DNA of 39,502 bases from Oscillospiraceae bacterium (GTDB lineage: Bacteria > Bacillota > Clostridia > Oscillospirales > Oscillospiraceae). How positions within the stretch are numbered: position 1 is the stretch's first letter; each line of letters opens with the position of its first letter. The stretch is taken from NCBI GenBank assembly GCA_017548065.1, contig JAFYNQ010000099.1, positions 1-39,502 of the forward strand. The letters run 5' to 3'. The position numbers and the translations under genes were made by a program. This document shows positions 20,988 through 38,459 of the stretch, in pieces. The notes under the pieces are model-generated. The model was not told the DNA's origin. It ran no database searches and was given only the letters and a program-made list of their open reading frames with translations.

Positions 20988-22082
20988 TTACTCAAAAGGA
21001 TATTTATCCGGAGTAAAGGGTGTGTCCTCACAGCTCATTGCCTCACGGGTCAGAGGATACATATCCTCATACATGCAGAAGCCAATGCCATACTCATCCT
21101 GGCGGTTTCTTGTGATGTATTCCTCTCGCCTTGCCACATTGGTTTCACCGATCATGTACAAATACTGAATTTCTGCCCATTTTGCCATGCCTTCATAAAT
21201 CAAAAGGCGATTGCTCTTGGCACACTTTTTGAAATTCTTTTTGTTGTCCCAATGGGTGTACTGCCAAATATGGGTCAACTCATGTGCAAAGGTTGCGATC
21301 AAAGAAATACGGGGCGCACCATTTTCCAAAATAATGCTGTATTTCTTTCTTTTGTTGATAGCTACGCCAAGAATGAGCAGGCTCTGGGAATCCCGTGTTC
21401 CCAAAGGAGCACCGATCTTTCTCTTAAGCTTACGCTCATCCACCACCTCAATGGACACAGGAACATCAATGGTTGCGCCAAAGAAGTTGTCCAGATTGGT
21501 GATCACACGCTGGCACAGCTCTTCCATTTCCGCTTTGGACTTTACCACCGTGCTGCTGCAGGTGGTGCAACGCATGCGGCCGTCCGGCAAGCGGAAGAAC
21601 TCCACGCCTGCGATCTCGGCGCCACAATAAGAACAGTACATCTGATTGTTCTTATTTTTATCTGCATTTCGGAAGCTTTCGGCACGGTTTTTACCTTCAC
21701 GTGCCTGCCGCAGTTCACCGCCGTCAAAGCCGATCTCCTGAAGGAATGCCATGGTACCATTCAGGTCCAAAGGTGTGTTACGCTTACCCTCACGGTACTT
21801 CAGATAATACCGCTCATGATAAGGAACCTCGGGTTTTTCCTGGGCAGCCGGCTCTTCCGCAGGTGCTTCTGCAGGTGCTTCTGCAGATTCTTCCGCAGGT
21901 GCTTCCACGGGTTCTTCTGTCGGTACTTCCGTAGGTTCTTCCGCAGGCGTCTCCGCAGGCGCTTCCTCGGTTTCGGGAACGGCAGGTGCGTCAGTCTCCT
22001 GGGGCTGTTCTTCTACAACTTCTGCAACCGGAATATTTTCTTCCTGCTGCAATTCTTCGGCCTCAGTTCTTTCTTCACGCAT
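20988..22082 (-). CDS. DA1-like zinc metallopeptidase with zinc ribbon and acidic repeat N-terminus
   Basis: 364 aa. Residues 1-85 are low-complexity Pro/Glu/Ala repeats (PAEEP, EAPAE units). Four cysteines (C150, C153, C172, C175) form a zinc ribbon. H267-E-L-T-H271 in FAHELTHIWQ is an HExxH metalloprotease site, and YEGMAKWAEIQYL (E297) fits the third ligand. Zinc finger, HExxH and EG motif in this order match the C-terminal peptidase of plant DA1 proteins and their bacterial relatives. No signal peptide is seen, so it is cytoplasmic. It is the last gene of the six-gene run; its ATG overlaps the upstream gene by 8 bases. It may cleave a component of this system. Confidence 0.75.
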   Translation of the reverse strand: MREERTEAEELQQEENIPVAEVVEEQPQETDAPAVPETEEAPAETPAEEPTEVPTEEPVEAPAEESAEAPAEAPAEEPAAQEKPEVPYHERYYLKYREGKRNTPLDLNGTMAFLQEIGFDGGELRQAREGKNRAESFRNADKNKNNQMYCSYCGAEIAGVEFFRLPDGRMRCTTCSSTVVKSKAEMEELCQRVITNLDNFFGATIDVPVSIEVVDERKLKRKIGAPLGTRDSQSLLILGVAINKRKKYSIILENGAPRISLIATFAHELTHIWQYTHWDNKKNFKKCAKSNRLLIYEGMAKWAEIQYLYMIGETNVARREEYITRNRQDEYGIGFCMYEDMYPLTREAMSCEDTPFTPDKYPFE

Positions 22083-25000
22083 CTTCGTTCACCTCGCCTT
22101 CACGCTGTTCTTGTTCGGGATTTCCTGCTTCGCTTTCTTCGGAAGCTTCCACAGCTTCTGTTACAGCCGGCTTTTCTTCCTCGGGCTGCTGCGTTTCAGG
22201 TGTTTCTGCCACGGTCACTTCCTCGGCAGGAAGCTCCTTCTTGGCCTTGGCAGCAGCTTTGGCTTCCTTTTTGGCTGCCTTTTCCTGCGCCTTGCGAAGC
22301 TTTTCTTCCTCACGCTGCGCACGCTTCAGCTCACGAGCTTTTTGTTTTTCTGTTTTTACGGTTTCCTTATCCGTAGCCTTTTCAGCATCGGCAGCTGCTT
22401 TTTCTGCCTTCTCAGCTTCCTTAGCCGCAGCTTTCTCAGCCTTTTCAGCTTCCTTAGCCGCAGCTTTCTCAGCCTTCTTGGCCGCACGTTCCGCCTTTTT
22501 CGCTTCACGCTCTGCCTTTCTAGCTTCCTTTGCTGCTGCCTTTTCCGCCTTCTTCCGCTCCTTGGGCGTCAGTCCATCCTCAGATTCCGGCGCAGGTGCT
22601 TTTTCCTTCTTCTTGAACAAGCCCTTGAACCAATCTGCGATCCGTCCGAAGAAGCCCTTCTTCTTTTCCGGCTTTTCCTCGGCATAGACATCAAAGGGAG
22701 CAGGCTTTTCTTCCGCAGGTGCATTCTGCTTGCGGATGCTCTCGGCGATTTGCTCGTCGTTCCAGATAAGATAATCTGCAACGATCTGCATAATACGGTT
22801 CACATTGCGCTCCACTGCGACCAGCAAGCCAATGTCCAGCTGGCTGTCTTCAATAATGTAGATGCACTTATCTGCGTTCTCCGGAGTTTCCTCAAAGGCA
22901 AGGCTATAAGTCAAAGGCGCATCATAGCTACCGGGTGTCACTGCGGAGATAAATGCCTGGTTGTCTGCAAACAAAGTCACAAAGACCTCGTTCAGCAGAT
23001 TTGTCAGAGTCATTCGCACAGAGTCTGTAAACGCTTCGCCCACCTTGGAGAAGTCAAACTTCAAAATCTGCTTGTGATGGTACTCACGTACGGGAACACC
23101 ATTGATCTTCACCAGTGCGCCATTGTCAAAATCATTGTGGGCACGCAGCTTCCAATAGCCGGGGGTCTCCACGCTGAAATCAGCATACTGACAGTGAATA
23201 TCAATGTTATTCACGGACTTCAAAGCGCCCATGGTATCGGAATCCTCCAGGTGATGGATGGTATAATTACGAACCTGGCGGTAGGCCAATCTGCCACCAA
23301 TGTGTTCCGATGCACGGCGCACCATAATGCGGTTGTCGGTAGCAGTGGATACCATTTCATAGTACTTACCGTTCAGCGTAAAGAACTGGCCGGGCATATA
23401 CTTCTGGTACACATGACCCTTCAACTCGGTGCCAATGTAAACATCCTTGCTCTCCTGCTCTGCAATATAGCTTGCATTCTGCAGGTCGTCCAGGATAATA
23501 CGGGAGAAAGCCTCATTTTCAATGGTGTAGACGCTTTCAAACTTACCGCTTTCCACGCTGTAAGCACGCTTAAAGAGAATTGTGGAATCCTTCTCAAAGC
23601 ACACCTCTTTGCCGTCCCGAGTGGTGACGGAAAGGATGGGATTGCCCTGCTTGTCCGTATCGCCGGCATTGCCGAAAATAACACAAACTTCCTTCCAGAT
23701 TTCCGTGGCAGGATCCTTTGTATCAACGTTCAGTATAGCCATCTGTCGGAGGAGTACTTCCTCCTTTACAGAATCAATGCACAGCAACAGACACAAAGAC
23801 AAAATCGCATTTCTCTTTGTTCTGGCATAGTCAGCAGTGATATAGGGAATTGCCTTGGCGTCGGCAGTGAACACCTCTGTGTTCGTTGCCATATACTCCC
23901 GGAGCATATACTCGGAGGAGATCACGTTGACAAAGCCCTGCTGTTCTGCGATGGTCGCAAAATTCCGTCGGGTTTCAAACAGATTGTTGCGGTCATCCTC
24001 AACGGTAATGAAGGAGTAATCGCTCACTCGCTCATCACACATATTAAAGGATGCCTGGAAACTCTTATCAAAGGTTTCCTGATTGGTGGGCAGCTTGGCA
24101 TAATCCAGCAGATCATAGTAATACTGCTTTGCGATCCACCGGGCATCCAGCACCGGGAATGCTTCGCCGCCGTACCACACAGTCTTCTTCACCTGGTTTT
24201 TAAGCGCCACCATGGACAGTTCCGTACCCATACCCAAGCATCTGGAGACACCGGGCAGAATACGATGCTGCAAATAATCGTCATCCGCTGTCCAGTACAT
24301 GTAGGAGCTCATGCCGTGGGGATATTCCGTAGCAGAGACCTCAGTAATGTTGGTCATCAGGATGTGGGACAGCGCATCCACCAAGCCGTCACAGTTGCGA
24401 TCCACGGAGCAGAAGGTAATGGCTCGCTCCTTGCCGCAGCATTTGATCAGCAGGTTCAGACCGATCTGCGCTGTTGTCACCAATCTGGAAGGTTCTACCA
24501 CCACAACAAAGGACACCTTTTTCAGGAAAGGCAGATTGTTCTTGTGGATATCCAGATCGTGAACGCCGGAACGGGAAATAATACCGATATCCGGCAGATC
24601 GTCCTCATTTACCTTCTTGCCGTCAAGTACAGAAACCTTCCACAAATCCGGAACGTTGGAGACTGCCTTCAAACCCGCTACAGACCAGCGCTGCAGATCT
24701 TCCTCTGTACCGTGACGACCCAGAACGATCATAATCTTGCCGCCGGTAAGCAGCTCACGGTTCATAGCGTAGAAGATATAAGGATTCAGCTTGTCGTAGA
24801 ACGGTGTGTTGAACAGCAGGCTCTTTCCGGTTGCCAGGTCATAGCCGCAGCGGACGTAATCCACATTGGGCTTCAGGCCGGACTCCATCTTTTTGCGGAT
24901 AAACAGCGCATAGTTCTTTCCGATATGGCCACCGTTCTGCTCCAGGCCAACCAGCACGTCCTCAATGGCGCCGCCGGACACACCGCCGTTATTGACAGTG

Positions 25001-25761
25001 GTGCCATCTGCAGAAAGCTTATCGCCAAACAGTGCCTTCAGGGGCTTTCTCAAAAGCGGATACATGGCAACGTGACGGGACTTGTCCGCCTGCATGGAAA
25101 AATCAGACTTTCCTGCTTCTGCGCCAATACCGTCCACAAAGAAGGCCATTTCGCCAATGATGATTACCGCAAATACCGGGTAAAACGGTGCGCTGATCAA
25201 GTGCTTCATGCACAAGCCGCAGGAGATCAGCAATACCAGTCCGGAAACTACGCAGCTTGCATAGTAGGCTGTTTTGATGAATGTGCAGGCCTGACCGTAA
25301 TGTTCCTTGATGTACCAACGGTCATCCATTTCATCATAAGAGTAGAACACCTCTACCAAAGAACCGATAAAGGTATTTCTGTAGACCTTGATCCTGCCAA
25401 AGATTCCAACCAGGACTCCCTTTACGATCAAGTACAGCAAGATCGCGGCTGTATTAAACAATACCAGCTCCAGGAAAATGCCCCAGGAGGCATAGACATT
25501 GCGGATCCAGTCTGCGATCACAGAAATTTTGATCTTATCAAACAGATCGGCAAGCTGGAAAAACTTTTCTGTACACAATGCGCCCAGCTTATCCAGGAAG
25601 ATCAGCAAAACCACACTGTACACCACCGCAAACACAGGCATAATATACTGTCTGTTGCGGTTTTCTTTTTTCACATTTGCTTTACCGTTCAGAAACGCAA
25701 ACAATATAAACGGAAGGAAAGACGCTGCCAGCTCTATGAGAAACTTTGTATCACTTTTCAT
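22075..25761 (-). CDS. Large multi-helix membrane protein with Lys/Glu/Ala coiled-coil tail; helicase-like core possible
   Basis: 1228 aa, not assigned to a family with confidence. Five hydrophobic segments lie in the first ~215 residues (about 10-27, 40-58, 95-118, 166-186, 192-210). A long cytoplasmic part follows. Its order of motifs (ATGKSLLFNTPFYD, DIGIISRSGVHDLD, VVVVEPSRL, and late HVYQKYMPGQFFTLNGKYYE and IYIIEDSQLDIGLL) is reminiscent of superfamily-2 helicases with a C-terminal MZB-like domain, but the ATPase motifs are not canonical. A basic amphipathic segment (FFGRIADWFKGLFKKK) leads to a charged coiled coil (about 1065-1175) and an acidic tail. It overlaps the 700-aa gene by 11 bases; GGAGGG precedes the ATG. 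Confidence 0.8.
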   Translation of the reverse strand: MKSDTKFLIELAASFLPFILFAFLNGKANVKKENRNRQYIMPVFAVVYSVVLLIFLDKLGALCTEKFFQLADLFDKIKISVIADWIRNVYASWGIFLELVLFNTAAILLYLIVKGVLVGIFGRIKVYRNTFIGSLVEVFYSYDEMDDRWYIKEHYGQACTFIKTAYYASCVVSGLVLLISCGLCMKHLISAPFYPVFAVIIIGEMAFFVDGIGAEAGKSDFSMQADKSRHVAMYPLLRKPLKALFGDKLSADGTTVNNGGVSGGAIEDVLVGLEQNGGHIGKNYALFIRKKMESGLKPNVDYVRCGYDLATGKSLLFNTPFYDKLNPYIFYAMNRELLTGGKIMIVLGRHGTEEDLQRWSVAGLKAVSNVPDLWKVSVLDGKKVNEDDLPDIGIISRSGVHDLDIHKNNLPFLKKVSFVVVVEPSRLVTTAQIGLNLLIKCCGKERAITFCSVDRNCDGLVDALSHILMTNITEVSATEYPHGMSSYMYWTADDDYLQHRILPGVSRCLGMGTELSMVALKNQVKKTVWYGGEAFPVLDARWIAKQYYYDLLDYAKLPTNQETFDKSFQASFNMCDERVSDYSFITVEDDRNNLFETRRNFATIAEQQGFVNVISSEYMLREYMATNTEVFTADAKAIPYITADYARTKRNAILSLCLLLCIDSVKEEVLLRQMAILNVDTKDPATEIWKEVCVIFGNAGDTDKQGNPILSVTTRDGKEVCFEKDSTILFKRAYSVESGKFESVYTIENEAFSRIILDDLQNASYIAEQESKDVYIGTELKGHVYQKYMPGQFFTLNGKYYEMVSTATDNRIMVRRASEHIGGRLAYRQVRNYTIHHLEDSDTMGALKSVNNIDIHCQYADFSVETPGYWKLRAHNDFDNGALVKINGVPVREYHHKQILKFDFSKVGEAFTDSVRMTLTNLLNEVFVTLFADNQAFISAVTPGSYDAPLTYSLAFEETPENADKCIYIIEDSQLDIGLLVAVERNVNRIMQIVADYLIWNDEQIAESIRKQNAPAEEKPAPFDVYAEEKPEKKKGFFGRIADWFKGLFKKKEKAPAPESEDGLTPKERKKAEKAAAKEARKAEREAKKAERAAKKAEKAAAKEAEKAEKAAAKEAEKAEKAAADAEKATDKETVKTEKQKARELKRAQREEEKLRKAQEKAAKKEAKAAAKAKKELPAEEVTVAETPETQQPEEEKPAVTEAVEASEESEAGNPEQEQREGEVNEDA
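22413..22475 (-). repeat. 33-bp tandem repeat in the coiled-coil tail
   Basis: Two nearly identical 33-base units lie head to tail and encode the 11-residue unit AEKAEKAAAKE twice. Each unit carries TTCCTTAGCCGCAGC and TTTCTCAGCC on the plus strand. Repeat-number change by slippage would alter the length of the coiled coil without breaking the frame. Confidence 0.7.
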
Positions 25762-27853
25762 AGATTCCCTCCATTCTTACCAGAATACATTTCACATAGC
25801 TTGACGGAACTGTCACGAAATTACCGTTACTGATAAATTCGATCTGTCTGCAGTCTCCTGCCAGATACGGAGCAGGATAATCATATTCCGTCTTTTGATC
25901 AAAATCATAATCATAGGGGCGGCACATTGTATCATCACAGAAGGAGCGGTCACCGAAGTAATCGCTGTAGTCTTCCAAAAGCTGTGCCCGCAATTTACGA
26001 ATATCTTCCTGATGCTTTTTGCGAATTCGCAGGCTCTTTGTATACTCATCCAGATTTTTCCGTGCCAGATTCTGGACAGCATGGCCTCTTCGCACGTTGC
26101 AGGAAGCGCTTAAATACTTTGAGAACCGTTTCAAGGACGACTGAATATCGTTCATGATCTCATGGGCTGTGTTGTTATAAGCTCTGATTGCATTTTTGAC
26201 AGAGCTGCGCAGGAAAAACAAAGTAACAAACAGAACTACACCCAACAAAGCGATCATTCCCAAGCTCAGGAAAATCGCTGTTGATATCGTCTGTGCAGTA
26301 CCACCGTTATCAAAGAGGAACGGCATGAAGCAAAGCAGATATAAGCCCAGACAGATAGCGCTCAACACCGCCACTGTTTTGGATGTCATACGGCGACTGA
26401 TGGTCTTCTTTATCTTTCCAGACTCCTCTTCCAGGCGCTGTGTATACCGGGAAATATCCGTCAGATCCGGCGGAATGGATTCCACCATCTCGTTTTCTGC
26501 TGCATCTGTGTAATCACGGATGTCATCAATCTGCAAGGGTGTCAAACGGCTGACGTTCACATCAGAAATCTCACTGGTAGCATGGCTCTGACCGACGCTC
26601 TTGCGAATGGCACGGCTCTGCTGCTTTGCTATGTAAGCCAGTGCCTTTTCCGATGTGCTGTAAGATCGGTTCCATTTATGATACTCATCTTCAGGACGAT
26701 CAAAAAACAAACCGTAGTCATTGTCTGCCAATACTTTTTCCGGATCACAAGACTCATCCAGTATTACTGCCACATCCTTGGGCGTACAGAAAAGTGCTTC
26801 TGCGGCCTTGTCGGTCAGCTCACCGGGAATTTCACTGCGGATCCTCTCCATCTCGTTCTCAATGACTTCACTGGTTGCCGCAAGCTTCCTGTCATAGGAT
26901 GTTACCATGGTGCAAAGCGGTGCATCATCGGTTTCTGCATCCAACTGATACAGTCGCCGCGCCTGCATTGCACTGCCGGGAATCGGATTGGACACAAAGA
27001 TCAAGATGGTTGCAAGAAAACGAATGTAGTCCGTCCGGAAATTTCGGTGAGTATGCGCAAGCATATCAAACACCATAAAGCGCATACGGTCAAAATACAT
27101 ATTGCGGTCCGCAAACTCCGAATACTCGCTATCCTGACGGATTGTCCAATATGCATCCGGATCAAAATAATTGTTTTCCGCTGCACGAGTAGAAATGCAG
27201 AACACTTCACTGGGATATGCAATGTTCAAGTATGCCTCCCCAATGAACTCTCTGCGTGCATTTTCCTTCATGCGCAGCTCACGCTTATACTGATCCCGTT
27301 CCAGCAGTTCCAGCTTAACACTGGGCTTCTGATTATCCTTTTCAATTTGCTCCATTGCCCAATCATGGACATCCTGCTTTTCCTTTACATCGTTAAGAAC
27401 ATAATCCTCCGGTCTGAAGCAAAGCCATGTTGCCAGTTTCTGGAACGGATACTCCAATGCACTTTGGTAAATCGCCTTTTTAGCTTCTGCCCGATCATTG
27501 AAGTATTTTTCCCAGACTTCCACCCAATCATCCAGCTTTTGCTCTTCTCCCGGCTGCCGGCTGGGTTCTTCCAATCCATCCAGCGCCTCATGATTTACGA
27601 TATCAAAAGGGTTACGCATTTTTGAGGTTTGTACTGTGCTGTTATAAATGATAACTGCACGCCAATCCTTTCGCCGTCCTACGGCATCCTGGAGCCCGGG
27701 GACAGAATCCTGAAGATTCTGTCCCATAGGGTTCCAATAACAGAATGCCAACTCTTTGTTCTTCAGAAACGGTTCAAAAAACAGCTTGTTTTCCTGTTGT
27801 ATGGCATCAATATGTTCTTTTTCAGCTATTAAAACTGTGAACAAACCACTCAT
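25751..27853 (-). CDS. 700-aa protein with two central membrane helices, unrecognised
   Basis: I do not recognise a family. The first ~485 residues are soluble and start MSGLFTVLIAEKEHIDAIQQ with an alternation typical of a Rossmann-like or response-type fold. Two hydrophobic segments (about 488-508, SKTVAVLSAICLGLYLLCF; 520-548, AIFLSLGMIALLGVVLFV) form a hairpin, and a ~150-residue charged helical tail follows. The ATG at 27853 sits directly after CGGAG, too close for normal use; TTG at codon 4 has better spacing (about 9 bases) and may be the true start. It lies between the tubulin-like gene (19 bases) and the 1228-aa gene (11-base overlap), so the products are probably partners at the membrane. 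Confidence 0.8.
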   Translation of the reverse strand: MSGLFTVLIAEKEHIDAIQQENKLFFEPFLKNKELAFCYWNPMGQNLQDSVPGLQDAVGRRKDWRAVIIYNSTVQTSKMRNPFDIVNHEALDGLEEPSRQPGEEQKLDDWVEVWEKYFNDRAEAKKAIYQSALEYPFQKLATWLCFRPEDYVLNDVKEKQDVHDWAMEQIEKDNQKPSVKLELLERDQYKRELRMKENARREFIGEAYLNIAYPSEVFCISTRAAENNYFDPDAYWTIRQDSEYSEFADRNMYFDRMRFMVFDMLAHTHRNFRTDYIRFLATILIFVSNPIPGSAMQARRLYQLDAETDDAPLCTMVTSYDRKLAATSEVIENEMERIRSEIPGELTDKAAEALFCTPKDVAVILDESCDPEKVLADNDYGLFFDRPEDEYHKWNRSYSTSEKALAYIAKQQSRAIRKSVGQSHATSEISDVNVSRLTPLQIDDIRDYTDAAENEMVESIPPDLTDISRYTQRLEEESGKIKKTISRRMTSKTVAVLSAICLGLYLLCFMPFLFDNGGTAQTISTAIFLSLGMIALLGVVLFVTLFFLRSSVKNAIRAYNNTAHEIMNDIQSSLKRFSKYLSASCNVRRGHAVQNLARKNLDEYTKSLRIRKKHQEDIRKLRAQLLEDYSDYFGDRSFCDDTMCRPYDYDFDQKTEYDYPAPYLAGDCRQIEFISNGNFVTVPSSYVKCILVRMEGIYEK

Positions 27854-27872
27854 CTCCGTTTCTTAAAAATTA

Positions 27873-30800
27873 TTAACTATTTTTGCCGTCACTAAACTCC
27901 TTGGCAACCTTATCCAGCAGAGCCTCATAATCTTCCGGCTCGGGAGCGGACAGGATCACATCGCGGATCTTTCTCTGGATAATATCCAAAACTACATTCT
28001 CGTGAGCCTCGGGTGCCTTTGCGTAATCCACGTACAGGTGATAGTTCCGCTTCAGCAGATTCAGTTCGTCTACCAGACGGTTACACAGAACGAACTTGAC
28101 GTCTTCCTTCTTCTCCCACTTGGAGTACTCTTCACGGAACACATCAATGACTGCCTCAACCATAGCTGTGATTTCAGAGATATATCTGCCGGAATTAGGC
28201 AAAGAGCAATAGTACATCAGAGGAATTGCAAACAAGCTGGTTGCGTTCTCAACATAACGCTTCTTGTCGTCTTCCAGCTCCATGTTAGCATTTGTACCCT
28301 GCTTGTTTCGTGCTTCTCTGTTCTTTTCAATCTCTTTCTTGATTTCCTCCAGAACCTTCTGCGTGCCGTCACAAGCCTTCGGCAACTTTACCAATTCCTC
28401 TTCAGGAATATCCAGCAAGTTCACCAGATTGAACTTAGCCATATCCTTGAAGAATTCAGTGTTCTCGTAATTGCAGTTCTTAGCTTCGGACATTGCTCTC
28501 TTGCGGTTCTTGATCAAACCGATGTCCTCAACAACCTTGGAGTTGACATACAGTGCATCCAGGACTTCATAGAACTCATCACACAGAGTGCCGTTGGGAA
28601 CGGTCAGCTCAATGTCACGGTTATCAGAATCCCGATACAGATAGACCTTCTTGCCGTTGGCGACAGCAGACAAAGGCTTCTGCTGGATCACATGATGGAT
28701 CAAACCATAGACAAATGCCTTATGCACTTTGCGGATAACCTGCTGCTGGTAATCAAAGTCCAGTTCGGGCATGCTCTTGATGGAGTCCCAAGCCTTGTCA
28801 ATATGGGTAGAGATGGCAGCATTCTTGGTGGAGTCAGGTCCGATCAGGCGAGAATACTCGCTGTAAGCCTTATGATAGGTACCAGCGCTCTTCTTACCGG
28901 TTTCGGTTTCAAAGGGTGCTGCAAACTTCTTCAGCTTGTTGGGGGTCAGGTTGTACAAAGCGTTGTAGAAATGGATCTCATACTTGGATACAGTATCCAC
29001 AGCCTCACCGTTGGGCATCAGATCTTTGACGCGGAACTTACGGTTATCCAGCAAGCATTTGTTATAAGCGCAAACCTTGATTTCTCTGGGTTCTTCATTG
29101 GTAACACGCTGCACGGAGGGAGCTGCGATACGAGCGCCCATAGCCACAACTTCCATGATGTGACGCTTTGCATCTTCAACAGACACCTGCTCAAAGATCT
29201 GGGTATCACCGTTATTTTCAGCACGCAGGCGGATACGCTCTTTCAGGCGCTGCTCCAACTCAATCGCGCCGATGATATCGCGGTCAATATCTTCACACTT
29301 CTCACGAACACTGTTCTTGAAGTAGCCCAGGAGAATGTCATCAAAGATATCCACACGGCGGTCCTCTTCAATGTAACCACCACCTGCATTGTCCAACTCC
29401 ATCTTGAAGATTGCGTTATTCTTGACAGCATCAAAAATACTACCGTTAATTTCAGAACTGAGCATCGTGGTTTCTTTCTGTGCCTTCTGCAGGGAGAAAG
29501 TACTCACTTCATCCAACAGTTCCTGTGTTGCACAGATGTTCATGAAGGAATCGCCCTTCTTGTACTGCAGTTCGTCCACCATATCAATCTTTTTGCGGCT
29601 CAAATCCTTAACCTTATAAACAAAGGTATTGAAGAACTGCTCAAACTGCTCTGCAAACGCCTTAATATAAGGATATGCCTTTGCATAGGCAGCGTGAACA
29701 GCTTCCTTCTTGCAGTAATCCTCTAATTTTTTGAAGTATGCAGGAATATCCTGATTTGCGATCTCGTTCAATGCATTGTAGCCCTTCAGCTTATCAAACA
29801 CAGTAGGCTGATCAATGACCAATCTACCCAGACCTTCAATACCAAACACAGTCTCCTTGGAGAACTTGAAGGAATACTCCTTTGTCTTGCACTTCTGCAC
29901 TGCCTTCAAAGCATTTTCATGCTCATCGGAGCCGATCTTCTCTTCAAACTTTTCCATCAGGCGATACAACACGAAACGAGCTGCACAGGGATGGAACAGT
30001 TCATTCTGGGCATTCCGCAACAGACTTTCAATATTGTAAGCATCTTCAATGGCGATGGTCTTCTGATCCTTCGTCATCACAGCCTCTGCCCAATTGTTGA
30101 CAATCCCCTCAATAACAGACTTGCCGTCCTTGCTCTTTGCTTCTGCCTTGCCAGCAAATGCCTTCAATGCATTAACTGCAACATTGATTTTGCTTTCACT
30201 GGTGCCAAAGCCAGGATTCTGTCTCCATTTCTTTGCGCTGGTATAATAATTTGCAAAGCGGTTGTCGTCCATAACGACATTAAATGCCTGCTCTTCAAAG
30301 CTCTGCATGAAAGACTCAATTCTGTCATCCAGATTCTCGAGTTCAAATGTGTTGCGCAGATCCTTGGAGAAATTATCCTCACCACTGAACAGCTTATCGC
30401 AGTATACCTTACCGTGAGAATCCCATGTAGACATAGGAATGCCACGCTTCTTCTGCTCTGCCTTATAAGCTTCATATGCCTTGTCATACTTTGTCCACTT
30501 GGTAGCATCACCTTCACCACCGATGCTGTCAATGGCCATATCGTATGCCACATAGTCAGCGACCTTTTCATAGGGATAGCGGATAACACCGGCGCCGATA
30601 CCGCCAAAACGGTTACGGCCGTAATTGCCGGGCTTTGTCATTTCCTTGATGATGTTATCCTCCACAGAGAATGCCTTCTTCTGCATAGGACCGATGTTCT
30701 GCTCGTACAGAGCCTGTGCCGCCTGGTCAATATACTGACCAACGCTGATCATGGTGCTATCCTCGGCATCCTGACCATCCATCAGGAAGCAGAAATCCAT

Positions 30801-31595
30801 AGGCAGCAGAGCCAGAGACTTCTGCTTGTCAGAGCCTGCAATGGACACGTTCACGTGCATGCCACCGAACTGCTTCAAATCCTCATCCAGATCAATAAAG
30901 CCGGAACCCTTCATCATGAAGGCATTCAGTTCCTTAACGGTTGCATAAGCATTACGAGCCTGGCTGTCGCGCTCAGTCTGGGAGTCAATAACGCTGTCCA
31001 GGGTCTCGGGCAACAGCAACAAAGAACGAACGATCAAAGCGGTGTTGGGATACTTTTCCTTCACATAGTCACGGATAAACATGGACAGAGGCAGAATGAT
31101 ACCGGAACCGGTACCGCCGGAAGCCGTGGACGCAATGACCACACGCATTGCCTGCTTCATGTCCTTACCGGTCTTACGAAACAGGTCATCAATTGCATCA
31201 TACAGAGGACGGATCTTACCGGTCTTAATAGTGGCATTCAAAGCCAGACGGGAGATCGCACGCACCTGGCCAGCACCTTCGGAAACGGTCTTATCATACA
31301 TAACCGCATTCTTGGGGAACCACTTTTTACGAGCTTCCTCATCATAATCCAGGTAGCTGCCAACAGTCTGGGTGTTGGAGGTCTGAACCCAATAGATCTT
31401 GGACTTGCCGTTTGCAACATCGGACAAGTCATTCACATTGGTATCCAGGCACAGGAAATTGATATTTTCCTTTTCTTCAGGCAGGCACAGATCCGCAACT
31501 TTCTTGACGATCTTACAGCCGGTACCGCCTACGCCAACAAACAGAGTCGGTGCAGCAACCTCATTTGCCTTTAATGTTTCCTTGTTAATTTCCAT
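27873..31595 (-). CDS. Large tubulin/FtsZ-like GTPase-domain protein
   Basis: 1240 aa. The N-terminal ~250 residues have the tubulin/FtsZ nucleotide-binding pattern: FVGVGGTGCKIV (20-30), FLCLDTNVNDL with D51, and STASGGTGSGIILP (156-169), which corresponds to the GGGTGTG signature of FtsZ and tubulin. This fits the PF13809 tubulin-like group, which in other bacteria is found with vWA proteins in proposed membrane-remodelling modules. The remaining ~950 residues are mostly helical and of unknown role. No signal peptide or membrane helix is seen, so it is cytoplasmic and may polymerise or switch on GTP. GGAGGAG lies 6 bases before the ATG. It follows the vWA gene after 15 bases. Confidence 0.9.
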   Translation of the reverse strand: MEINKETLKANEVAAPTLFVGVGGTGCKIVKKVADLCLPEEKENINFLCLDTNVNDLSDVANGKSKIYWVQTSNTQTVGSYLDYDEEARKKWFPKNAVMYDKTVSEGAGQVRAISRLALNATIKTGKIRPLYDAIDDLFRKTGKDMKQAMRVVIASTASGGTGSGIILPLSMFIRDYVKEKYPNTALIVRSLLLLPETLDSVIDSQTERDSQARNAYATVKELNAFMMKGSGFIDLDEDLKQFGGMHVNVSIAGSDKQKSLALLPMDFCFLMDGQDAEDSTMISVGQYIDQAAQALYEQNIGPMQKKAFSVEDNIIKEMTKPGNYGRNRFGGIGAGVIRYPYEKVADYVAYDMAIDSIGGEGDATKWTKYDKAYEAYKAEQKKRGIPMSTWDSHGKVYCDKLFSGEDNFSKDLRNTFELENLDDRIESFMQSFEEQAFNVVMDDNRFANYYTSAKKWRQNPGFGTSESKINVAVNALKAFAGKAEAKSKDGKSVIEGIVNNWAEAVMTKDQKTIAIEDAYNIESLLRNAQNELFHPCAARFVLYRLMEKFEEKIGSDEHENALKAVQKCKTKEYSFKFSKETVFGIEGLGRLVIDQPTVFDKLKGYNALNEIANQDIPAYFKKLEDYCKKEAVHAAYAKAYPYIKAFAEQFEQFFNTFVYKVKDLSRKKIDMVDELQYKKGDSFMNICATQELLDEVSTFSLQKAQKETTMLSSEINGSIFDAVKNNAIFKMELDNAGGGYIEEDRRVDIFDDILLGYFKNSVREKCEDIDRDIIGAIELEQRLKERIRLRAENNGDTQIFEQVSVEDAKRHIMEVVAMGARIAAPSVQRVTNEEPREIKVCAYNKCLLDNRKFRVKDLMPNGEAVDTVSKYEIHFYNALYNLTPNKLKKFAAPFETETGKKSAGTYHKAYSEYSRLIGPDSTKNAAISTHIDKAWDSIKSMPELDFDYQQQVIRKVHKAFVYGLIHHVIQQKPLSAVANGKKVYLYRDSDNRDIELTVPNGTLCDEFYEVLDALYVNSKVVEDIGLIKNRKRAMSEAKNCNYENTEFFKDMAKFNLVNLLDIPEEELVKLPKACDGTQKVLEEIKKEIEKNREARNKQGTNANMELEDDKKRYVENATSLFAIPLMYYCSLPNSGRYISEITAMVEAVIDVFREEYSKWEKKEDVKFVLCNRLVDELNLLKRNYHLYVDYAKAPEAHENVVLDIIQRKIRDVILSAPEPEDYEALLDKVAKEFSDGKNS

Positions 31596-31610
31596 TTCTA
31601 CTCCTCCATT

Positions 31611-34142
31611 TTATCTTTTTTTGAAGTTTAGCGGAATTTCTGCGCTAAAGTTTTTCATTTTTCCAGCGATCATAATTTTGCCGTTTATTGTTATGCTGGC
31701 GCCGTTTGTGATCATATAGGGGGCTTGTTGCTCTTCAACCGGTTTGAACGTTCCATTATTATCAAACGCATATTCAATACCGGCAACATCAACAGAATTC
31801 AATTCACCCGACGCATTTACACTCTCTGGGAATTTCACCAAGAAGCTACGTCTGTGAGAGGGCTTGTACAAATAGCTTTCCTTACCCGGGGACAATTTGG
31901 TAAGCGAAACTCTGCCCAATTCCTCTGCATTATATTCCACGAATACTACGATCTGTTTACCTGTAGTCCTGGCATAGAAATTAGCATCATCTGTTACATC
32001 CTTGCCGCCCACACGAAGACTACAAGTATCCGTATCAGCACGCATAGTGCTGGGCGGTCTGCGAATATGCATGATCCGGAGAATCATAAAAATCAGGAAA
32101 GCCAATACTCCCAGTCGTAAAAGCCACAGTGTCAAAAGGGCCATGTTACTTAAGGTAATCGTCACAGATTCGGTGAGCTGGGTTTCTCTGCCGACCTGAT
32201 CTGTATACTGTGCTGTTACCTTGATGGGATAGTTTCCTTCTGCAATGCCCTCTGTGGCCAGCAGCTTAATGGTATAGGATCTGCTTTGCTCATCGGGCGT
32301 TACTGTGTGCTTAATGCCACTGCAATCCACCTGCAGAACAACACGGGAGAAATCCTCCGCAGACAACGGTGCGCCGTTAAGCTTAAAGTTAACTGTAATG
32401 GGTGCGCTTTCTTCCAGTTCTTTAATAACAATATAGGTCTCCGGCACATCCAGTTCCAGCTTCAAGGGGATAAAATCGTCCTTGATGTTATAAGTAAACG
32501 CACACTGTGTCTGTGCCTCACTGCTTCCCGGAGGGGAGTAGTGTGCATAAATGGTAACTGTGCATTCTCCGCAAACCGTGTTTTGCGGCGCTGCAGGATC
32601 TTTGTAGTGCAGTGCCAGCTTCCAGTGATCATCCGCAAAGGTCTTCTTGATCTCTGCATTACTGGTTTCCGGATCCCATCGCAGCTCCACCTTTTCCAGC
32701 TCGCTGCCTGTCAGCTGCGTACCCTGGTAATAAACCTTCGCAACCGCCGGCTCATCGTCTTCCAGGTGCAGCAGTGAATAGGTACCGGCGCCGCCGGAGA
32801 TCTCCAGCTTCATTTCACCGGCAGGCTTGGGGGCCACCTGAATACCGCCCTCCGGCCAACCAAAGTCGGAAGAGTCCTTCGTAATGGTGTAGCCGCTAAG
32901 GTACGTGGCCGTCAGCTTTGCTTCAAATTTCTCTCCCATCTTCAGCGGAACATCTACGCTGCCGCTGAAACCCTCATGGGTGAAGGGAGTTTCCTTGCCG
33001 TCAATAAAATAGCTTCCCTGGTATTTGGGGTTGCCCAGCAGATCCGAAGATATCAATTTTCCGGTCTTCGCATCCTTCATGCCAAAAGTGACTTTATAGT
33101 CACCTTCGTACAGCGCATTGGGATCTACCGTATTGCCCTCTGCGTCCGTAAAGACGAAGTCCAGGTCTGCGTCCGGCTCGTAATACACCTCAACGCTGCT
33201 TGCCGTACCTGTGTACTCAATATTATATGTACCGGCAGCGCAATCTGTATAGGTGACCATCATGCCCTGCAGGGAGGTATCCGGGACGCTTTTGTAGTCA
33301 CCTGCGCCCTTAGTGGAATACATCGTCTGCTGAGAGCTGACCTGCTGTCCCACCGTACCGCCGGTGAGCTTCAGATTGCTGATGTTCTCGCCTTGCACGA
33401 AAATGATCATCTTGCTTATGGAAATATCAACATCTATGGTATTACCATTAATCCGACTCTTGGGCAGCGTGTCTCTGCCAAAAATCTGGTTGCACATGTA
33501 CGTCAGGGTGGACAGAACGTCCTCCGTATTGACGGCCTGCTTTTTCACAAACCACTCAGATTCTGCCGTATTGGGCATGCAGGCATCAGCGCCGATACCC
33601 AGGTACATGACCGACATGGATTTGCCGGCATATTGGGTCACACGATTGTCCAGTTCTTTTCTTGTGCGGTCCTTAGACAGACCCGAGCTGTTTTTTGAGA
33701 AGGTTCCGCCGTCTGTTAAGACGATCATATATTTCTTATCTGCCTGAACCTTCTGCAAGCCGCTGGCTGCGCAGTCTATACTTTCAATCGGGGTGCCACT
33801 GGCATTTGCCGTAAAAATATCCCGAATCGTAGATGCCTGCGCTGCATCGGTGACCTGGAACGGGGCTTCCATTGTGTAAGTCTTTCCTCCGACCTGGATA
33901 GGCCACATGGGATAGATCTGCAACACATCGCCCTTGTTCAGCATGGATGCGAACACTTCCATAGCGTAAGTCGCACGACACCATGCCATATTTTTTTCTT
34001 CATACATAGAGCCGGAATTATCAAACACGATAGCAATCGCTCGTGATTCCGTGGTTTTTCCGGCCGCATTGACCTTTGGTATTGCTGAGACCATACAAAC
34101 GATCAACAGCACCGCGAGGATCATGCTTATGTATCTCTTCAC
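31611..34142 (-). CDS. Secreted, membrane-anchored von Willebrand factor A protein
   Basis: 843 aa with a GTG start and GAGGAGAGG ahead of it. A signal peptide (1-26, cut after VNA) leads to a vWA domain: the MIDAS motif D41-N-S-G-S45, SGTPIES and VLTDGG. Several beta-rich, Ig-like segments follow (for example TYNIEYTG, ATYLSGYT, PIKVTAQYTD). A membrane helix at about 667-691 (LLTLWLLRLGVLAFLIFMILR) is followed by a 152-residue cytoplasmic domain. The protein would bind a ligand outside with its metal site and pass a signal or force to the tubulin-like and membrane proteins encoded next to it. Confidence 0.9.
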   Translation of the reverse strand: MKRYISMILAVLLIVCMVSAIPKVNAAGKTTESRAIAIVFDNSGSMYEEKNMAWCRATYAMEVFASMLNKGDVLQIYPMWPIQVGGKTYTMEAPFQVTDAAQASTIRDIFTANASGTPIESIDCAASGLQKVQADKKYMIVLTDGGTFSKNSSGLSKDRTRKELDNRVTQYAGKSMSVMYLGIGADACMPNTAESEWFVKKQAVNTEDVLSTLTYMCNQIFGRDTLPKSRINGNTIDVDISISKMIIFVQGENISNLKLTGGTVGQQVSSQQTMYSTKGAGDYKSVPDTSLQGMMVTYTDCAAGTYNIEYTGTASSVEVYYEPDADLDFVFTDAEGNTVDPNALYEGDYKVTFGMKDAKTGKLISSDLLGNPKYQGSYFIDGKETPFTHEGFSGSVDVPLKMGEKFEAKLTATYLSGYTITKDSSDFGWPEGGIQVAPKPAGEMKLEISGGAGTYSLLHLEDDEPAVAKVYYQGTQLTGSELEKVELRWDPETSNAEIKKTFADDHWKLALHYKDPAAPQNTVCGECTVTIYAHYSPPGSSEAQTQCAFTYNIKDDFIPLKLELDVPETYIVIKELEESAPITVNFKLNGAPLSAEDFSRVVLQVDCSGIKHTVTPDEQSRSYTIKLLATEGIAEGNYPIKVTAQYTDQVGRETQLTESVTITLSNMALLTLWLLRLGVLAFLIFMILRIMHIRRPPSTMRADTDTCSLRVGGKDVTDDANFYARTTGKQIVVFVEYNAEELGRVSLTKLSPGKESYLYKPSHRRSFLVKFPESVNASGELNSVDVAGIEYAFDNNGTFKPVEEQQAPYMITNGASITINGKIMIAGKMKNFSAEIPLNFKKR

Positions 34143-34182
34143 AAGAATCCTCTCCTCTTTATACCCAATATATCAAGGGTAA

Positions 34183-34506
34183 TTATTTTTCTTTCACAAA
34201 CTCCGTGCCGTCAATGAAGATGGAGCTACCCTTCTTCTCAAAGCTCTTGACCCAATCATAGCTCAAGCCCAGCAGGCTGTAAGTGATGGTGATCTCGCCG
34301 TCTTCAATCAGGTACTCGCCTTCAATGTCAATGCCAAAGGCAGAAACCTCTACCTTATTGTCATCCTTGAAGGTAAAGCTCTGTTCAACCAGACCCTCGT
34401 TACTGGTATAGGTGCCTTTCAGGGTAATGGTACATGCCGTTAATGTACCGACCATCACGCAAACCAGCAGCAGGGCAATCATTGACTTTACAACATTTCT
34501 TTTCAT
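34183..34506 (-). CDS. Small lipoprotein, lipocalin-like size
   Basis: 107 aa. Signal peptide MKRNVVKSMIALLLVCVMVG with lipobox LTAC. The mature ~80 residues (ITLKGTYTSNEGLVEQSFTF, DDNKVEVSAFGIDIEGEYLI, EDGEITITYSL, GSSIFIDGTEFVK) read as short beta strands with a G-T-Y opening, like small lipocalin-type or DUF-type lipoproteins that report on cell-envelope state. The ATG at 34506 has AAAGGAG and starts the signal peptide; longer in-frame starts upstream are not credible. It is the first gene of the six-gene run, 40 bases before the vWA gene, so it may be the outer partner of that protein. Confidence 0.82.
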   Translation of the reverse strand: MKRNVVKSMIALLLVCVMVGTLTACTITLKGTYTSNEGLVEQSFTFKDDNKVEVSAFGIDIEGEYLIEDGEITITYSLLGLSYDWVKSFEKKGSSIFIDGTEFVKEK

Positions 34507-34595
34507 ACCGTACACTCCTTTATTTTGCTGTTTTTTTACACGCTCTGCACCCCGGTTGGAAGAAACACCTCCCCACGATGCAACATGACTAGTAT

Positions 34596-34625
34596 AGTAT
34601 ACCACATCCGCCTTATAAATAGCAA
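34596..34625 (-). promoter_or_regulatory. Promoter of the six-gene run
   Basis: On the minus strand TTGCTA (34620-34625), 18 bases, TATACT (34596-34601); a second TATACT overlaps it 5 bases on. The leader to the lipoprotein ATG is about 85 nt and contains a second GGGGAGG without an obvious start. The rest of the 34507-34857 spacer shows nothing recognisable. Confidence 0.6.
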
Positions 34626-34849
34626 TCCCTTTACTAAAAAAAGTCCGAAACATTTGTGTTTTTCACTCTTTCAAAATCATATATGCAGGTTTCTCCCCAT
34701 TTTTCTTGCCTTTTTTCACACTTTTTCTGCGATTTTATGTTAACGGCGCCCGTTTTTCGGCCGCAGACGGATGTTTTTCTGCCGCCGACAAAGCAATTTC
34801 CCGACACCCACTCCCCCACTGCACAGCACCCCCTTCGGCATCCGCAACG

Positions 34850-34898
34850 AAGAGAAAAATAATCCGACAAAAGACCTGGGGTCTTTTGTCGGATTATT
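34850..34898 (-). terminator. Terminator of the TIR-kinase gene
   Basis: A perfect 19-bp inverted repeat (34858-34876 and 34880-34898) with a 3-base loop contains the stop codon of the gene. On the minus strand it is followed by TTTTTCTC. It separates the kinase transcript from the six-gene run. Confidence 0.85.
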
Positions 34899-36750
34899 TA
34901 GAGAGGCGGTTGATGAGGTCACGGACAAGCCTTTGGGCGTCCGGGTCCAGCGCTTGCAGCTTTTTAATCGTATCGTCCATGGGCACGCCGGGGCTGGGCC
35001 GGGGTGGTATGGGCGGCGGAAGCTTTTCCGGGGGTACCGGTGTAACCCTCCGTCCGGGGGCAGGCGGTGTTGTGCCGGGTGTACCCGGAACATGGAAGCC
35101 CGCCGGAGCAAAAGAAGGTGTCGGTGCCGTCTGCGGTTTCGGAGGTGTCGGCGTTACCGGCGGCTTCGGAGCTACCGGCTGTGCGCAGCCACCTGCAGGC
35201 GGCGCTACAAATGCCTCCTGCGGAGGCGGCAACACTGTAGTCTCGTGCATACTCTCCAATCTGTCAGGTGTCTGAAGCTGCGACGGTACAGGTGTCGGTG
35301 CCTTCTGTGGCGCTGCTATTTTCGTTTTTACGCGTCCCATGCCACCGGACTTTCGGCCAAAGAAAGTCCGCACGCTTTCCTGCCAGGCAAATTTCTTAAT
35401 ATTCTCCAGGGCATCAAGCAGCTCCACCGCAGACTGGAAGCGCTGATCGGGGTCTCTCTGGGTACATCTTAATATGATCGCTTCCAGCCCCCGGGACAAT
35501 TCGGGATTCACCTGGCGAATAGGAAGGATCTCATAAGGAGGCGCTGAAGGACTTTTTCCGGTCACCAAATGGTACAAGGTGGCGCCCAGGTTGTAGATAT
35601 CTGTCCGCGCATCGGACTGTCCCATACCGCCGAACTGCTCCGGCGCAGCATAACCGATCGTTCCCAGACATGTGGTGTCCTCAGCCTTAGGCTCTGCGGA
35701 ATAGTAACGGGCAACGCCGAAATCTATCAGCTTGATATTGCCATCCGGAAGGACGATCACATTGGCAGGCTTCATGTCACGGTAAATAACCGGTGCAGGC
35801 TGGGAATGCAGATATGCAAACACCTCGCAAAGCTGTCGGGCATAATTCAGCACCATTTTCTCATCCACAGGACCGGAATCGGTAATTATCCGCTGCAGAG
35901 AGAGACCGTTGATAAAATCCATCACCAGGATCACGGAATTTTGGGACTCAATCACATCATAGATCCTGGGGATTGCAGGGTGCTTCAGCTTCTTCATCAT
36001 ATCCACTTCCCCACGGAAGCTTTTCATGACCACGTCAAAGCTTAAAACACTACTTCCCCGGATCTCTTTCACCGCATATTGACATTTTGTCTTTTCGTCA
36101 ATCGCCAGATACACCACGGACATACCGCCCTGGCCTACTTTGGACAAAATTCTGTATTTTTCATTTACCAGGTCGCCTACCTGAATCGCCTTATCTTCCG
36201 GCTCTTTTGTTTTCGCTTCCTCTTTTGATTTTGCTGAGAAGCGCTTCATCAAATCGCCTATATCAACAGCATCGGGCATCACAGGTGCGCTGCTCAGCAG
36301 CGTGGTGATTTCTTCATTTTTTTGGAATGCAGAGACCTTGCCGAAAAACACCTCAATAAAACGAACCAGGGCATTCAAGTCCGAGAAAGACTGGTAGGAT
36401 TTAAGACCGGAGGGCAGCTCACTTTCGGGATAGCCTTCTGCACGGTAGCTTGCCAGGGAGCGTCTGCCATCCTCTTCACTGTTCATCAGCGTTCTGAACT
36501 GGTTGATCTCCGCCTTCACCCATTTTGAGGTAAGGTTCTTTTTGGAGGCGCCGACTGCCACCAAAAGCAATGCACTGTCCAGGGCTTCGTCTATGACGTC
36601 CACATAATCCGCACGGGCGGCTTCATCAATGGAATACTTGCTAAAAAACGCTTTGATTCCCCGTTGCTTCAGTTCCCGATAAAGCGCTTCTGCCATCACC
36701 ACGTCCGGCTCAGCATTCTTAAACGAAATAAAAACCTGATAATCCGCCAT
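34894..36750 (-). CDS. TIR domain fused to a Ser/Thr protein kinase with proline-rich tail
   Basis: 618 aa. Residues 1-140 form a TIR domain: YQVFISFKN, KAFFSKYSI, and SKWVKAEI, in which W77 and E81 form the WxxxE motif holding the catalytic Glu of NAD-cleaving TIRs. Residues 199-450 are a Hanks-type kinase: GQGGMSVVYLA, AVKEI (K228), YRDMKPANV (D325), LIDFGVAR (D343), GYAAPEQ. HRD is YRD, as in some active kinases. A Pro-rich tail (about 475-595; PPPIPPRPSP) could bind partners. There is no membrane helix. ATG 36750 was chosen over a longer frame because GGGGGG and a consensus promoter precede it. No matching phosphatase gene is in the window. Confidence 0.92.
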   Translation of the reverse strand: MADYQVFISFKNAEPDVVMAEALYRELKQRGIKAFFSKYSIDEAARADYVDVIDEALDSALLLVAVGASKKNLTSKWVKAEINQFRTLMNSEEDGRRSLASYRAEGYPESELPSGLKSYQSFSDLNALVRFIEVFFGKVSAFQKNEEITTLLSSAPVMPDAVDIGDLMKRFSAKSKEEAKTKEPEDKAIQVGDLVNEKYRILSKVGQGGMSVVYLAIDEKTKCQYAVKEIRGSSVLSFDVVMKSFRGEVDMMKKLKHPAIPRIYDVIESQNSVILVMDFINGLSLQRIITDSGPVDEKMVLNYARQLCEVFAYLHSQPAPVIYRDMKPANVIVLPDGNIKLIDFGVARYYSAEPKAEDTTCLGTIGYAAPEQFGGMGQSDARTDIYNLGATLYHLVTGKSPSAPPYEILPIRQVNPELSRGLEAIILRCTQRDPDQRFQSAVELLDALENIKKFAWQESVRTFFGRKSGGMGRVKTKIAAPQKAPTPVPSQLQTPDRLESMHETTVLPPPQEAFVAPPAGGCAQPVAPKPPVTPTPPKPQTAPTPSFAPAGFHVPGTPGTTPPAPGRRVTPVPPEKLPPPIPPRPSPGVPMDDTIKKLQALDPDAQRLVRDLINRLSK

Positions 36751-36777: not shown

Positions 36778-36806
36778 ATTATAGCCCCAATCAAAAAATC
36801 TGTCAA
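36778..36806 (-). promoter_or_regulatory. Perfect-consensus promoter of the TIR-kinase gene
   Basis: On the minus strand TTGACA (36801-36806), exactly 17 bases, TATAAT (36778-36783). Both boxes match the consensus fully, so strong, constitutive transcription is likely. Confidence 0.9.
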
Positions 36807-37090: not shown

Positions 37091-37130
37091 CAGAAAAACA
37101 GCGATAGCTAATGCTATCGCTGTTTTTCTG
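37091..37130. terminator. Terminator-like hairpin downstream of the tRNA-Trp remnant
   Basis: An 18-bp perfect stem (37091-37108 with 37113-37130) over TAAT has T- and A-rich arms that give a terminator form on both strands. On the minus strand it begins at the CCA end of the tRNA remnant, as expected for the original terminator of that tRNA gene. Confidence 0.75.
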
Positions 37131-37173
37131 GCAGGGGCACAAGGACTTGAACCCTGAGCCTACGGTTTTGGAG
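37129..37173 (-). pseudogene. 3' half of a tRNA-Trp gene (attachment-site remnant)
   Basis: On the minus strand this reads as tRNA positions 32-76: anticodon loop CTCCAAA with anticodon CCA (Trp), ACCGT, a 5-base variable loop, T-arm CAGGG-TTCAAGT-CCTTG with all five pairs formed, acceptor strand TGCCCCT, G and encoded CCA. The expected 5' half (acceptor AGGGGCA, D-arm, ACGGT) is missing: the sequence departs right before the anticodon loop. That is where tyrosine recombinases often cross over in tRNA genes, so it marks one end of an integrated element. Confidence 0.75.
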
Positions 37174-38447: not shown

Positions 38448-38459
38448 AACCGTTTCTCC

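Follow-up and report, generated by a model that had tools for sequence, protein, structure and literature searches.

A conserved operon for a vWA protein, a tubulin-like protein, two membrane proteins and a putative zinc peptidase in an Oscillospiraceae bacterium

A tubulin-like/vWA operon and its relatives

Genes for tubulin-like proteins that stand beside genes for von Willebrand factor A (vWA) proteins have been in print since 2010, when Makarova and Koonin described FtsZl1 together with vWA proteins, kinases and a GTPase and proposed a role in membrane remodelling (PMC2875224), a role that the original prediction for the DNA studied here, made from its letters alone, also named for such pairs. 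A 2023 paper separates FtsZl1-type proteins from the FtsZ/tubulin family proper (PMC9871819). In the sets described by Kaur et al. in 2020, tubulin and vWA proteins occur with a DO-GTPase and GAP1-N2 and are regarded as conflict systems (PMC7159879). No experimental function of Tubulin_2/FtsZl1 proteins, described in 2010, is given in the papers cited. Here we describe an operon from an Oscillospiraceae bacterium that resembles these sets. It lies on contig C86 (JAFYNQ010000099.1) of a draft genome with a size of 2.46 Mb and 126 contigs; positions 1 to 39,502 of that contig are the whole stretch of DNA analysed and are called the window below.

The original prediction had been of a seven-gene system: six genes on one strand with overlaps or gaps of at most 40 nt, coding for a lipoprotein, a vWA protein, a giant tubulin-like protein, two large membrane proteins and a zinc metallopeptidase, and directly upstream a gene for a TIR domain fused to a kinase. 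This layout is correct (Table 1), and the gaps from the lipoprotein gene to the peptidase gene are indeed, in order, 40, 15, 19, -11 and -8 nt. What is conserved, however, is a unit of four functions rather than seven genes: a vWA protein, a Tubulin_2 protein, a protein with two transmembrane (TM) stretches (TM700), and a multi-TM protein with its metallopeptidase (TM1228 and PEP). The survey covered the best 80 of 353 relatives from a scan of genome contigs, mostly metagenome-assembled genomes titled as Clostridia and their kin, many bearing gut or rumen sample names, with a few Erysipelotrichaceae/Solobacterium. The gene order vWA, tubulin, TM700, TM1228, PEP is contiguous on one strand and complete in 61 of the 80 loci and is cut by a contig end in a further 18, and 231 of the 237 gaps within the unit are 150 nt or shorter (median 19), so the operon is a conserved unit, as had been expected. 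The single exception, L126 (7061-14888), has broken tubulin and TIR-LRR genes, TM700 and TM1228 were not found there, and the locus looks as if it were decaying. The lipoprotein gene is optional, with homologs in only 4 of the 80 relatives (L067, L068, L073 and L094) and in L048.

Presence of the operon is scattered across Clostridia and their relatives. A search with the tubulin-like protein gave matches in 8 of the family's 101 genomes and 27 of the order's 394 (the bacterium's own counted in both) but in none of four from the same genus, and some of the family and order matches are divergent subtypes. The core genes have a G+C content of 0.46-0.50 and the left flank one of 0.53, a difference that would agree with horizontal gain, although it is a weak sign when taken alone. 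Same-genus genomes, compared as possible empty sites, had no flanks in common with the window except the exchanger gene, at most 55% identical within the genus.

The vWA protein consists of a signal-peptide-like N-terminus, a vWA domain with a complete metal-ion-dependent adhesion site (MIDAS), the rest of an ectodomain, one TM stretch at about residues 662-690, and a variable tail. Pfam gave no vWA call for the window protein itself at E ≤ 1; the label is kept because the MIDAS residues are complete and because a profile-linked relative, in locus L019, matches PF00092 at 1.1e-16. Residues D41, S43, S45, T117 and D144 are invariant in 35 aligned sequences (window included), and DxSxS is present in 71 of 74 vWA proteins, two of the remaining three lacking the N-terminus. 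Judging by the signal-like N-terminus, the vWA domain would be extracellular. A fast-evolving ectodomain was considered as a sign of an arms race and rejected, as the variable part is the tail and not the vWA domain.

The adjacent gene encodes the giant tubulin-like protein that had been predicted. Its match to Tubulin_2 scores 169 bits against a cut-off of 27, which places it in the FtsZl1/Tubulin_2 family, and the neighbouring vWA gene with an intact MIDAS is also as found for that family. The T4 loop GGTG[ST]G is present in all 76 tubulin-like relatives, and the T1 loop GxGGxG in 75 of the 76 (as GxGGTG in 45). From its sequence it is a GTP-loop protein of the tubulin family without TM stretches.

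Neither of the two membrane proteins had a Pfam match over the cut-off, and TM1228 had no credible relative in the PDB. Both the N- and C-terminal parts of TM700 are probably cytoplasmic. TM1228 comprises an N-terminal TM region, a large conserved domain, a basic amphipathic segment and a low-complexity linker; loop charge, assessed without a topology program, and domain type suggest that the large domain and the peptidase are cytoplasmic. In alignments the large domain looked helicase-like, an idea that was dropped for want of support from Pfam, NCBIfam or the PDB. The basic amphipathic segment KKGFFGRIADWFKGLFKKK, near residues 1035-1052 and ahead of the linker, recurs in several relatives and may bind membrane.

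TM1228 and the peptidase form a single open reading frame (ORF) in 48 of the 61 complete loci and two genes in the other 13, where the pairs overlap by 4-95 nt (longest ORFs) in 12 cases and are separated by 4 nt in one. Fusion is the majority state, and apart from L088, L106 and L123 the split pairs come mostly from loci near the window (69-79% tubulin identity). The peptidase therefore probably originated as a part of the membrane protein, and the window would represent a gene fission. Its motifs are well kept: HExxH in 60 of 61, HE[LM]THIWQ in 59 and YEGMAxW in 55, giving the HExxH plus distal Glu pattern of gluzincins, with the Glu of YEGMAxW presumably the third ligand. Together with a zinc-ribbon-like stretch these motifs support the earlier call of a zinc metallopeptidase, at the level of prediction. 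In L051, L052 and L053 a second, transglutaminase-like domain lies C-terminal of the zinc peptidase; such a motif was seen in 10 of 60 long TM1228 relatives, one of which gave a Pfam Transglut_core match below the cut-off (E 0.01).

Table 1. Features of the operon and its surroundings in the window
Feature	Position	Strand	Basis
TIR-Ser/Thr kinase, 617 aa, Pro-rich tail	34894..36747	minus	Pfam Pkinase and TIR_2
TIR-kinase promoter, TTGACA-17-TATAAT	36778..36806	minus	12/12 consensus bases
Intrinsic terminator directly 3' of TIR-kinase stop codon	34857..34899	minus	20-bp stem, 3-nt loop, T run
Weak promoter-like site upstream of lipoprotein gene, TTGCTA-18-TATACT	34596..34625	minus	9/12 bases, a match expected by chance; no evidence of function
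Small lipoprotein, optional first gene	34183..34506	minus	MKRNVV...LTAC, lipobox-like
vWA protein, 843 aa, GTG start	31611..34142	minus	MIDAS residues and PF00092-matching relative
Tubulin-like GTPase, FtsZl1/Tubulin_2 family, 1240 aa, long C-terminal part	27873..31595	minus	PF13809, 1.8e-49
2-TM protein, 700 aa (TM700)	25751..27853	minus	hydrophobic stretches 496-514 and 527-545
Multi-TM protein, 1228 aa (TM1228)	22075..25761	minus	N-terminal TM region
Putative zinc-ribbon + HExxH metallopeptidase (PEP)	20988..22082	minus	motif; 8-nt overlap with TM1228 gene
Na+/Ca2+ exchanger, possible accessory	19869..20909	minus	PF01699, 3e-60; 78 nt downstream of operon
3' part of tRNA-Trp-like gene, CCA end	37129..37173	minus	45-mer identical in two IMG/VR viral contigs

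Genes beside the operon

The TIR-kinase gene is most likely a separate transcription unit, because a 20-bp hairpin and T run stand directly at its stop codon and the lipoprotein gene starts only after a further 387 nt; its promoter is perfect, as had been stated. Pfam gives Pkinase at 1.4e-48 and TIR_2 at 3.8e-8, hydropathy gives no TM stretch, and the protein has WxxxE at residue 76 as well as the kinase Lys, RD and DFG motifs. The WxxxE of TIR domains is catalytic, and this protein may cleave NAD. No TIR-kinase gene was found beside the operons of the 80 relatives and, at the thresholds used, no other TIR-kinase fusion among the 394 genomes of the order, where kinase and TIR match lists were compared by eye and C86 was the sole contig on both. 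Matches to the TIR-kinase at E ≤ 1e-40 occur in 119 of these genomes and to its TIR part at E ≤ 1e-8 in 28 (its own included in both); among the TIR-kinase matches listed, all but its own start at residue 140 or later and none covers the TIR_2 region. In 16 loci with kinases of 49-60% identity, a neighbour of FHA/DUF6382 type is always present and one of PP2C type in 15, both named by Pfam on one member each. In many of the loci of this kinase subfamily, which are L166-L181, there is also a pilin-like gene and one for a giant protein whose domains are Ig-like (by Pfam in one case).

Across the 80 loci a kinase motif was seen in just one ORF, that of L080 (635 aa, 3.6 kb upstream of the vWA gene, same strand), which matches the kinase part only and has no TIR match, so operons of this type do not regularly come with a kinase. 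The proposal of a seven-gene unit with the TIR-kinase as a built-in switch is thus largely refuted, and we regard it as very improbable. It would account for the adjacency, shared strand and perfect promoter of the TIR-kinase gene, for the L080 kinase gene, and for two kinase genes after the operon of the divergent locus L019, but it is contradicted by the terminator, by the 80 relatives, by a kinase half closest to the kinases of FHA/DUF6382-PP2C loci, and by the attachment-site fragment just upstream of the gene. The best reading of the TIR-kinase is as an exchangeable accessory and local neighbour of the operon.

That upstream fragment, which we take to be tRNA-Trp by its anticodon loop, is likely an attachment-site remnant of an integrated element, because its 45-mer is identical in two viral contigs, in one of which (L225, from IMG/VR) it lies about 200 nt from a putative tyrosine integrase gene, so named from the look of its sequence. 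ARAGORN called no tRNA in the window, and the incomplete genome held no second copy within three mismatches of a 30-mer. Beside the fragment, at 37260-39128, are a gene with an HSDR_N_2 domain (5.7e-21) and a second gene with a weak restriction-enzyme match; the low G+C content of this segment (0.417) suggests a mobile element extending past the contig end. By the usual geometry of such sites, these two genes would lie within the element, and the TIR-kinase gene on the side of the chromosome. The idea that tRNA genes are general insertion sites of the operon was rejected, since only 6 of the 60 loci scanned (of 80) contained any.

Although no TIR-kinase gene was found beside the 80 related operons, TIR genes of other designs recur beside the operon, and the TIR link first suggested thus holds in a wider form. 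A local TIR profile picked up 11 such genes flanking 10 of the 80 loci, and L100 adds one. At least 12 genes in at least 11 loci compare with 0.68 expected in 543 kb of flank from the Pfam TIR_2 matches of the same genomes, 135 in 50 and 97 in 30 (Poisson probability 1e-11 when 12 genes are counted and 2e-10 when 11 events are), bearing in mind that related loci are not independent, that genome sizes were rounded and that the flanks may hold more TIR genes. All 12 coincide by coordinates with Pfam TIR_2 places. Eleven are on the operon strand at 0.5-2.5 kb from it, four upstream and seven downstream, and that of L100 is on the opposite strand about 2.4 kb downstream. Pfam on five of the 12 gave LRR_5 in L069, LRR_4 in L104 and in one of the L106 genes, TIR with a weak Sel1 match in L125, and TIR only in L093 (cut); the TIR proteins of L084, L121 (cut) and L126 (broken) resemble the L069 protein along its LRR part.

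Such company is part of what an anti-phage or conflict system would show, in which the core would detect damage to the envelope or contact with a phage, whereupon the TIR protein, a channel or the protease kills or arrests the cell. Patchy presence, the restriction-like genes adjoining the window locus, and the classing of the kin GAP1-N2 systems, with tubulin and vWA, as conflict systems (PMC7159879) point the same way. PADLOC does not: five of the six operon proteins had no match and the tubulin-like protein only a weak partial one (E 0.0034), while the best matches of the TIR-kinase were kinase models over its kinase part, with no TIR system among the best 25 listed. Nor are the neighbours like those of a defence island, a co-occurrence that had been put forward for checking; the 131 of 202 immediate neighbours of the 80 loci that were scanned (L124-L145 not among them) gave seven member matches to five PADLOC models at E ≤ 1e-10. 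Among the 25 of 152 neighbour Pfam families listed, the most frequent were TIR_2 and dockerin, with four each, and the others occurred mainly in one to three members. As 69 of the 80 loci also have no TIR gene found in the available sequence, we consider this explanation unlikely.

Neighbour clustering followed by profiles revealed other recurrent families. A RyR-type membrane protein (C-terminal RyR domain, weak TrkA_N match) is encoded in 23 of the 80 loci and a CASTOR-like protein in 15; less frequent are a small lipoprotein-like family, with seven loci, and a CitMHS permease, with four. PDB profile matches were to an RyR1 chimera (2.9e-14) for the first and to CASTOR (4e-7) and DMI1 (9.5e-7) for the second; CASTOR is reported to be a channel for Ca2+ that contains an RCK ring (PMC6697748). 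Of the 11 TIR loci, 7 have RyR-type genes, against 16 of the remaining 69 (p 0.011). Directly adjacent, near-overlapping RyR-type and TIR-LRR genes (L069:2621-6154, L084:1489-4781, L082:15469-18101) are possibly a two-gene module of their own; in L197 the two are close together away from the operon, and the window genome has two RyR-type copies outside the locus (L194, L195). The exchanger directly downstream of the operon is also present in L076, 88% identical, the only one of the 80 loci in which it was found. L076 carries an RyR-type gene upstream, with no TIR gene found, and since it shares the exchanger and yet differs there, the upstream slot seems exchangeable. In L204 an Na/Ca exchanger lies beside an RyR-type gene.

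These neighbours could mean that the core, together with the RyR/TrkA-type and CASTOR-like proteins and the exchanger, controls ion flow in cation or envelope-stress homeostasis and has no immune role. The counts of RyR- and CASTOR-type genes and the exchangers of the window, L076 and L204 would agree with that, but any one such gene is missing from most loci, the exchanger was found in just one of the 80, and we think the explanation quite improbable.

What the operon may do

Gene order, co-orientation, motifs and the recurrent TIR, RyR-type and CASTOR-like neighbours lead us to prefer, tentatively, a four-function envelope complex in which the extracellular vWA domain would govern both a tubulin-like switch and a protease in the cytoplasm, and to which TIR or cation modules could be added interchangeably. 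The vWA domain would bind a ligand outside the cell via its metal site, and the single TM helix and tail would report to the cytoplasmic tubulin-like protein, which, at the inner membrane surface, may switch or polymerise with GTP. TM700 and TM1228 would anchor this protein and read its state, and the membrane-held zinc peptidase would cleave a target as the output. The accessory genes (TIR-LRR, TIR-kinase, RyR-domain, CASTOR-like, Na/Ca exchanger) would couple the core to an NAD-derived or cation signal; the TIR, RyR-type and CASTOR-like neighbours suggest a nucleotide or cation signal as one input or output.

Several observations weigh against this picture. Filament-forming elements are described as not identifiable in FtsZl1 proteins (PMC2875224). 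Conservation of the vWA protein is lowest in its tail, with 29-35% identity against 48-63% for the vWA domain in eight relatives, so a conserved contact between tail and tubulin-like protein is not favoured. Loci without an RyR-type gene number 57 of the 80, and those with no TIR gene found in the available sequence 69, so neither is needed for the core. The RyR-type family occurs in 16 of 29 genomes with Tubulin_2 relatives (6 on the operon contig and 10 on another) against 1 of 28 without (p 2e-5), but the negatives are all from the window's family and most positives are not, the 29 include other tubulin subtypes, and two fragmentary genomes of the 31 known positives (G330, G398) were excluded; within the family the figures are 4 of 8 against 1 of 28 (p 0.005). 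For the CASTOR-type family co-occurrence does not reach significance (6 of the 29 positives against 1 of the 28 negatives, p 0.10), and the five strong matches in positive genomes are all on the operon contig.

A membrane-remodelling or cell-shape machine would look different: the tubulin-like protein would form membrane filaments, the vWA and TM proteins would place them, and the peptidase would have a housekeeping or regulatory part. Here the family and its vWA partner are the same as those for which remodelling was proposed (PMC2875224), and all but one of the four core proteins carry a signal or TM stretch. Against this reading stands the patchy presence (27 of the order's 394 genomes, the bacterium's own among them, and none of four in the genus), and the conserved protease and the recurrent TIR genes are left unexplained; we rate it unlikely.

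The four-function envelope complex can also be extended, as a speculation that is probably wrong, into a pathway like that of integrin, cytoskeleton and calcium: an extracellular metal-dependent vWA receptor, a tubulin relative and a membrane-tethered protease would act through an exchangeable TIR protein (LRR, Sel1-type or, in the window, kinase) and its ADP-ribose-type messenger on RyR-domain/TrkA-type proteins and a CASTOR-like cation channel. That TIR, RyR-domain and CASTOR-like genes keep non-random company with the operon suggests that NAD-type signalling and cation channels are connected with a relative of tubulin in bacteria, a connection that we did not find in open-licence full texts. 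The fixed four-function operon with its dedicated protease offers clear test objects for the function of Tubulin_2/FtsZl1 proteins.

Comparison with described systems

With the FtsZl1 operons (PMC2875224) the window shares the FtsZl1 protein, the adjacent MIDAS vWA gene, several membrane proteins of unknown family, and kinases that are sometimes nearby. It differs in that no GTPase or OmpA gene was found here, and the pair of a 2-TM protein and a multi-TM protein with zinc metallopeptidase is not named in the available passages of the main text of that paper, although its supplementary families A1-A2 and B1-B9 may include some of the window proteins.

The GAP1-N2/DO-GTPase systems (PMC7159879) likewise have tubulin-domain and extracellular vWA genes in Firmicutes, in a proposed conflict setting. 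The window has the tubulin and the extracellular vWA, the latter by its signal-like N-terminus, but no DO-GTPase, GAP1 or FNIII protein was found: there was no DO-GTPase match in nine window proteins (E ≤ 1) or ten more (E ≤ 0.01), and GAP1 with N2/M/C domains was not found among the same 19 either. L019, in a genome of the window's family, has vWA and tubulin genes, a DO-GTPase2 match right at the cut-off (4.2e-6) and a weak GAP1-N2 candidate (E 0.13), and one of its kinase proteins has weak solute-binding-protein matches; it looks like a second tubulin/vWA type that is GAP1-N2-like. A common origin of TM700 or TM1228 with GAP1 or GTPase proteins was rejected, as three profile comparisons with L019 proteins gave no similarity, among them one of the TM1228-peptidase region with the weak GAP1-N2 candidate. 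Because the GTPase and GAP1 were not found, and because TM700 and TM1228-peptidase are unlike the L019 proteins compared, the operon is not placed in the GAP1-N2 class.

Thoeris and other TIR anti-phage systems also have a TIR domain with WxxxE; here, however, the TIR domain is part of a kinase fusion whose gene is not in the operon. DA1-type peptidases have HExxH with a downstream Glu and a zinc-binding stretch in front. The window peptidase has those motifs, but it has no DA1-like or LIM Pfam match at E ≤ 1, so that the "DA1-type" label it was first given is not supported, and unlike those enzymes it is fused to a multi-TM protein in most relatives (48 of 61).

The original view that this is not a described system thus needs to be divided: tubulin/vWA sets were already in print in 2010 and 2020, but no paper on this particular gene set was found in open-licence full texts. 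The GTPase and GAP1 parts of the published types were not found, whereas two conserved membrane proteins and a protease were; the operon looks like an undescribed version of the known tubulin/vWA type.

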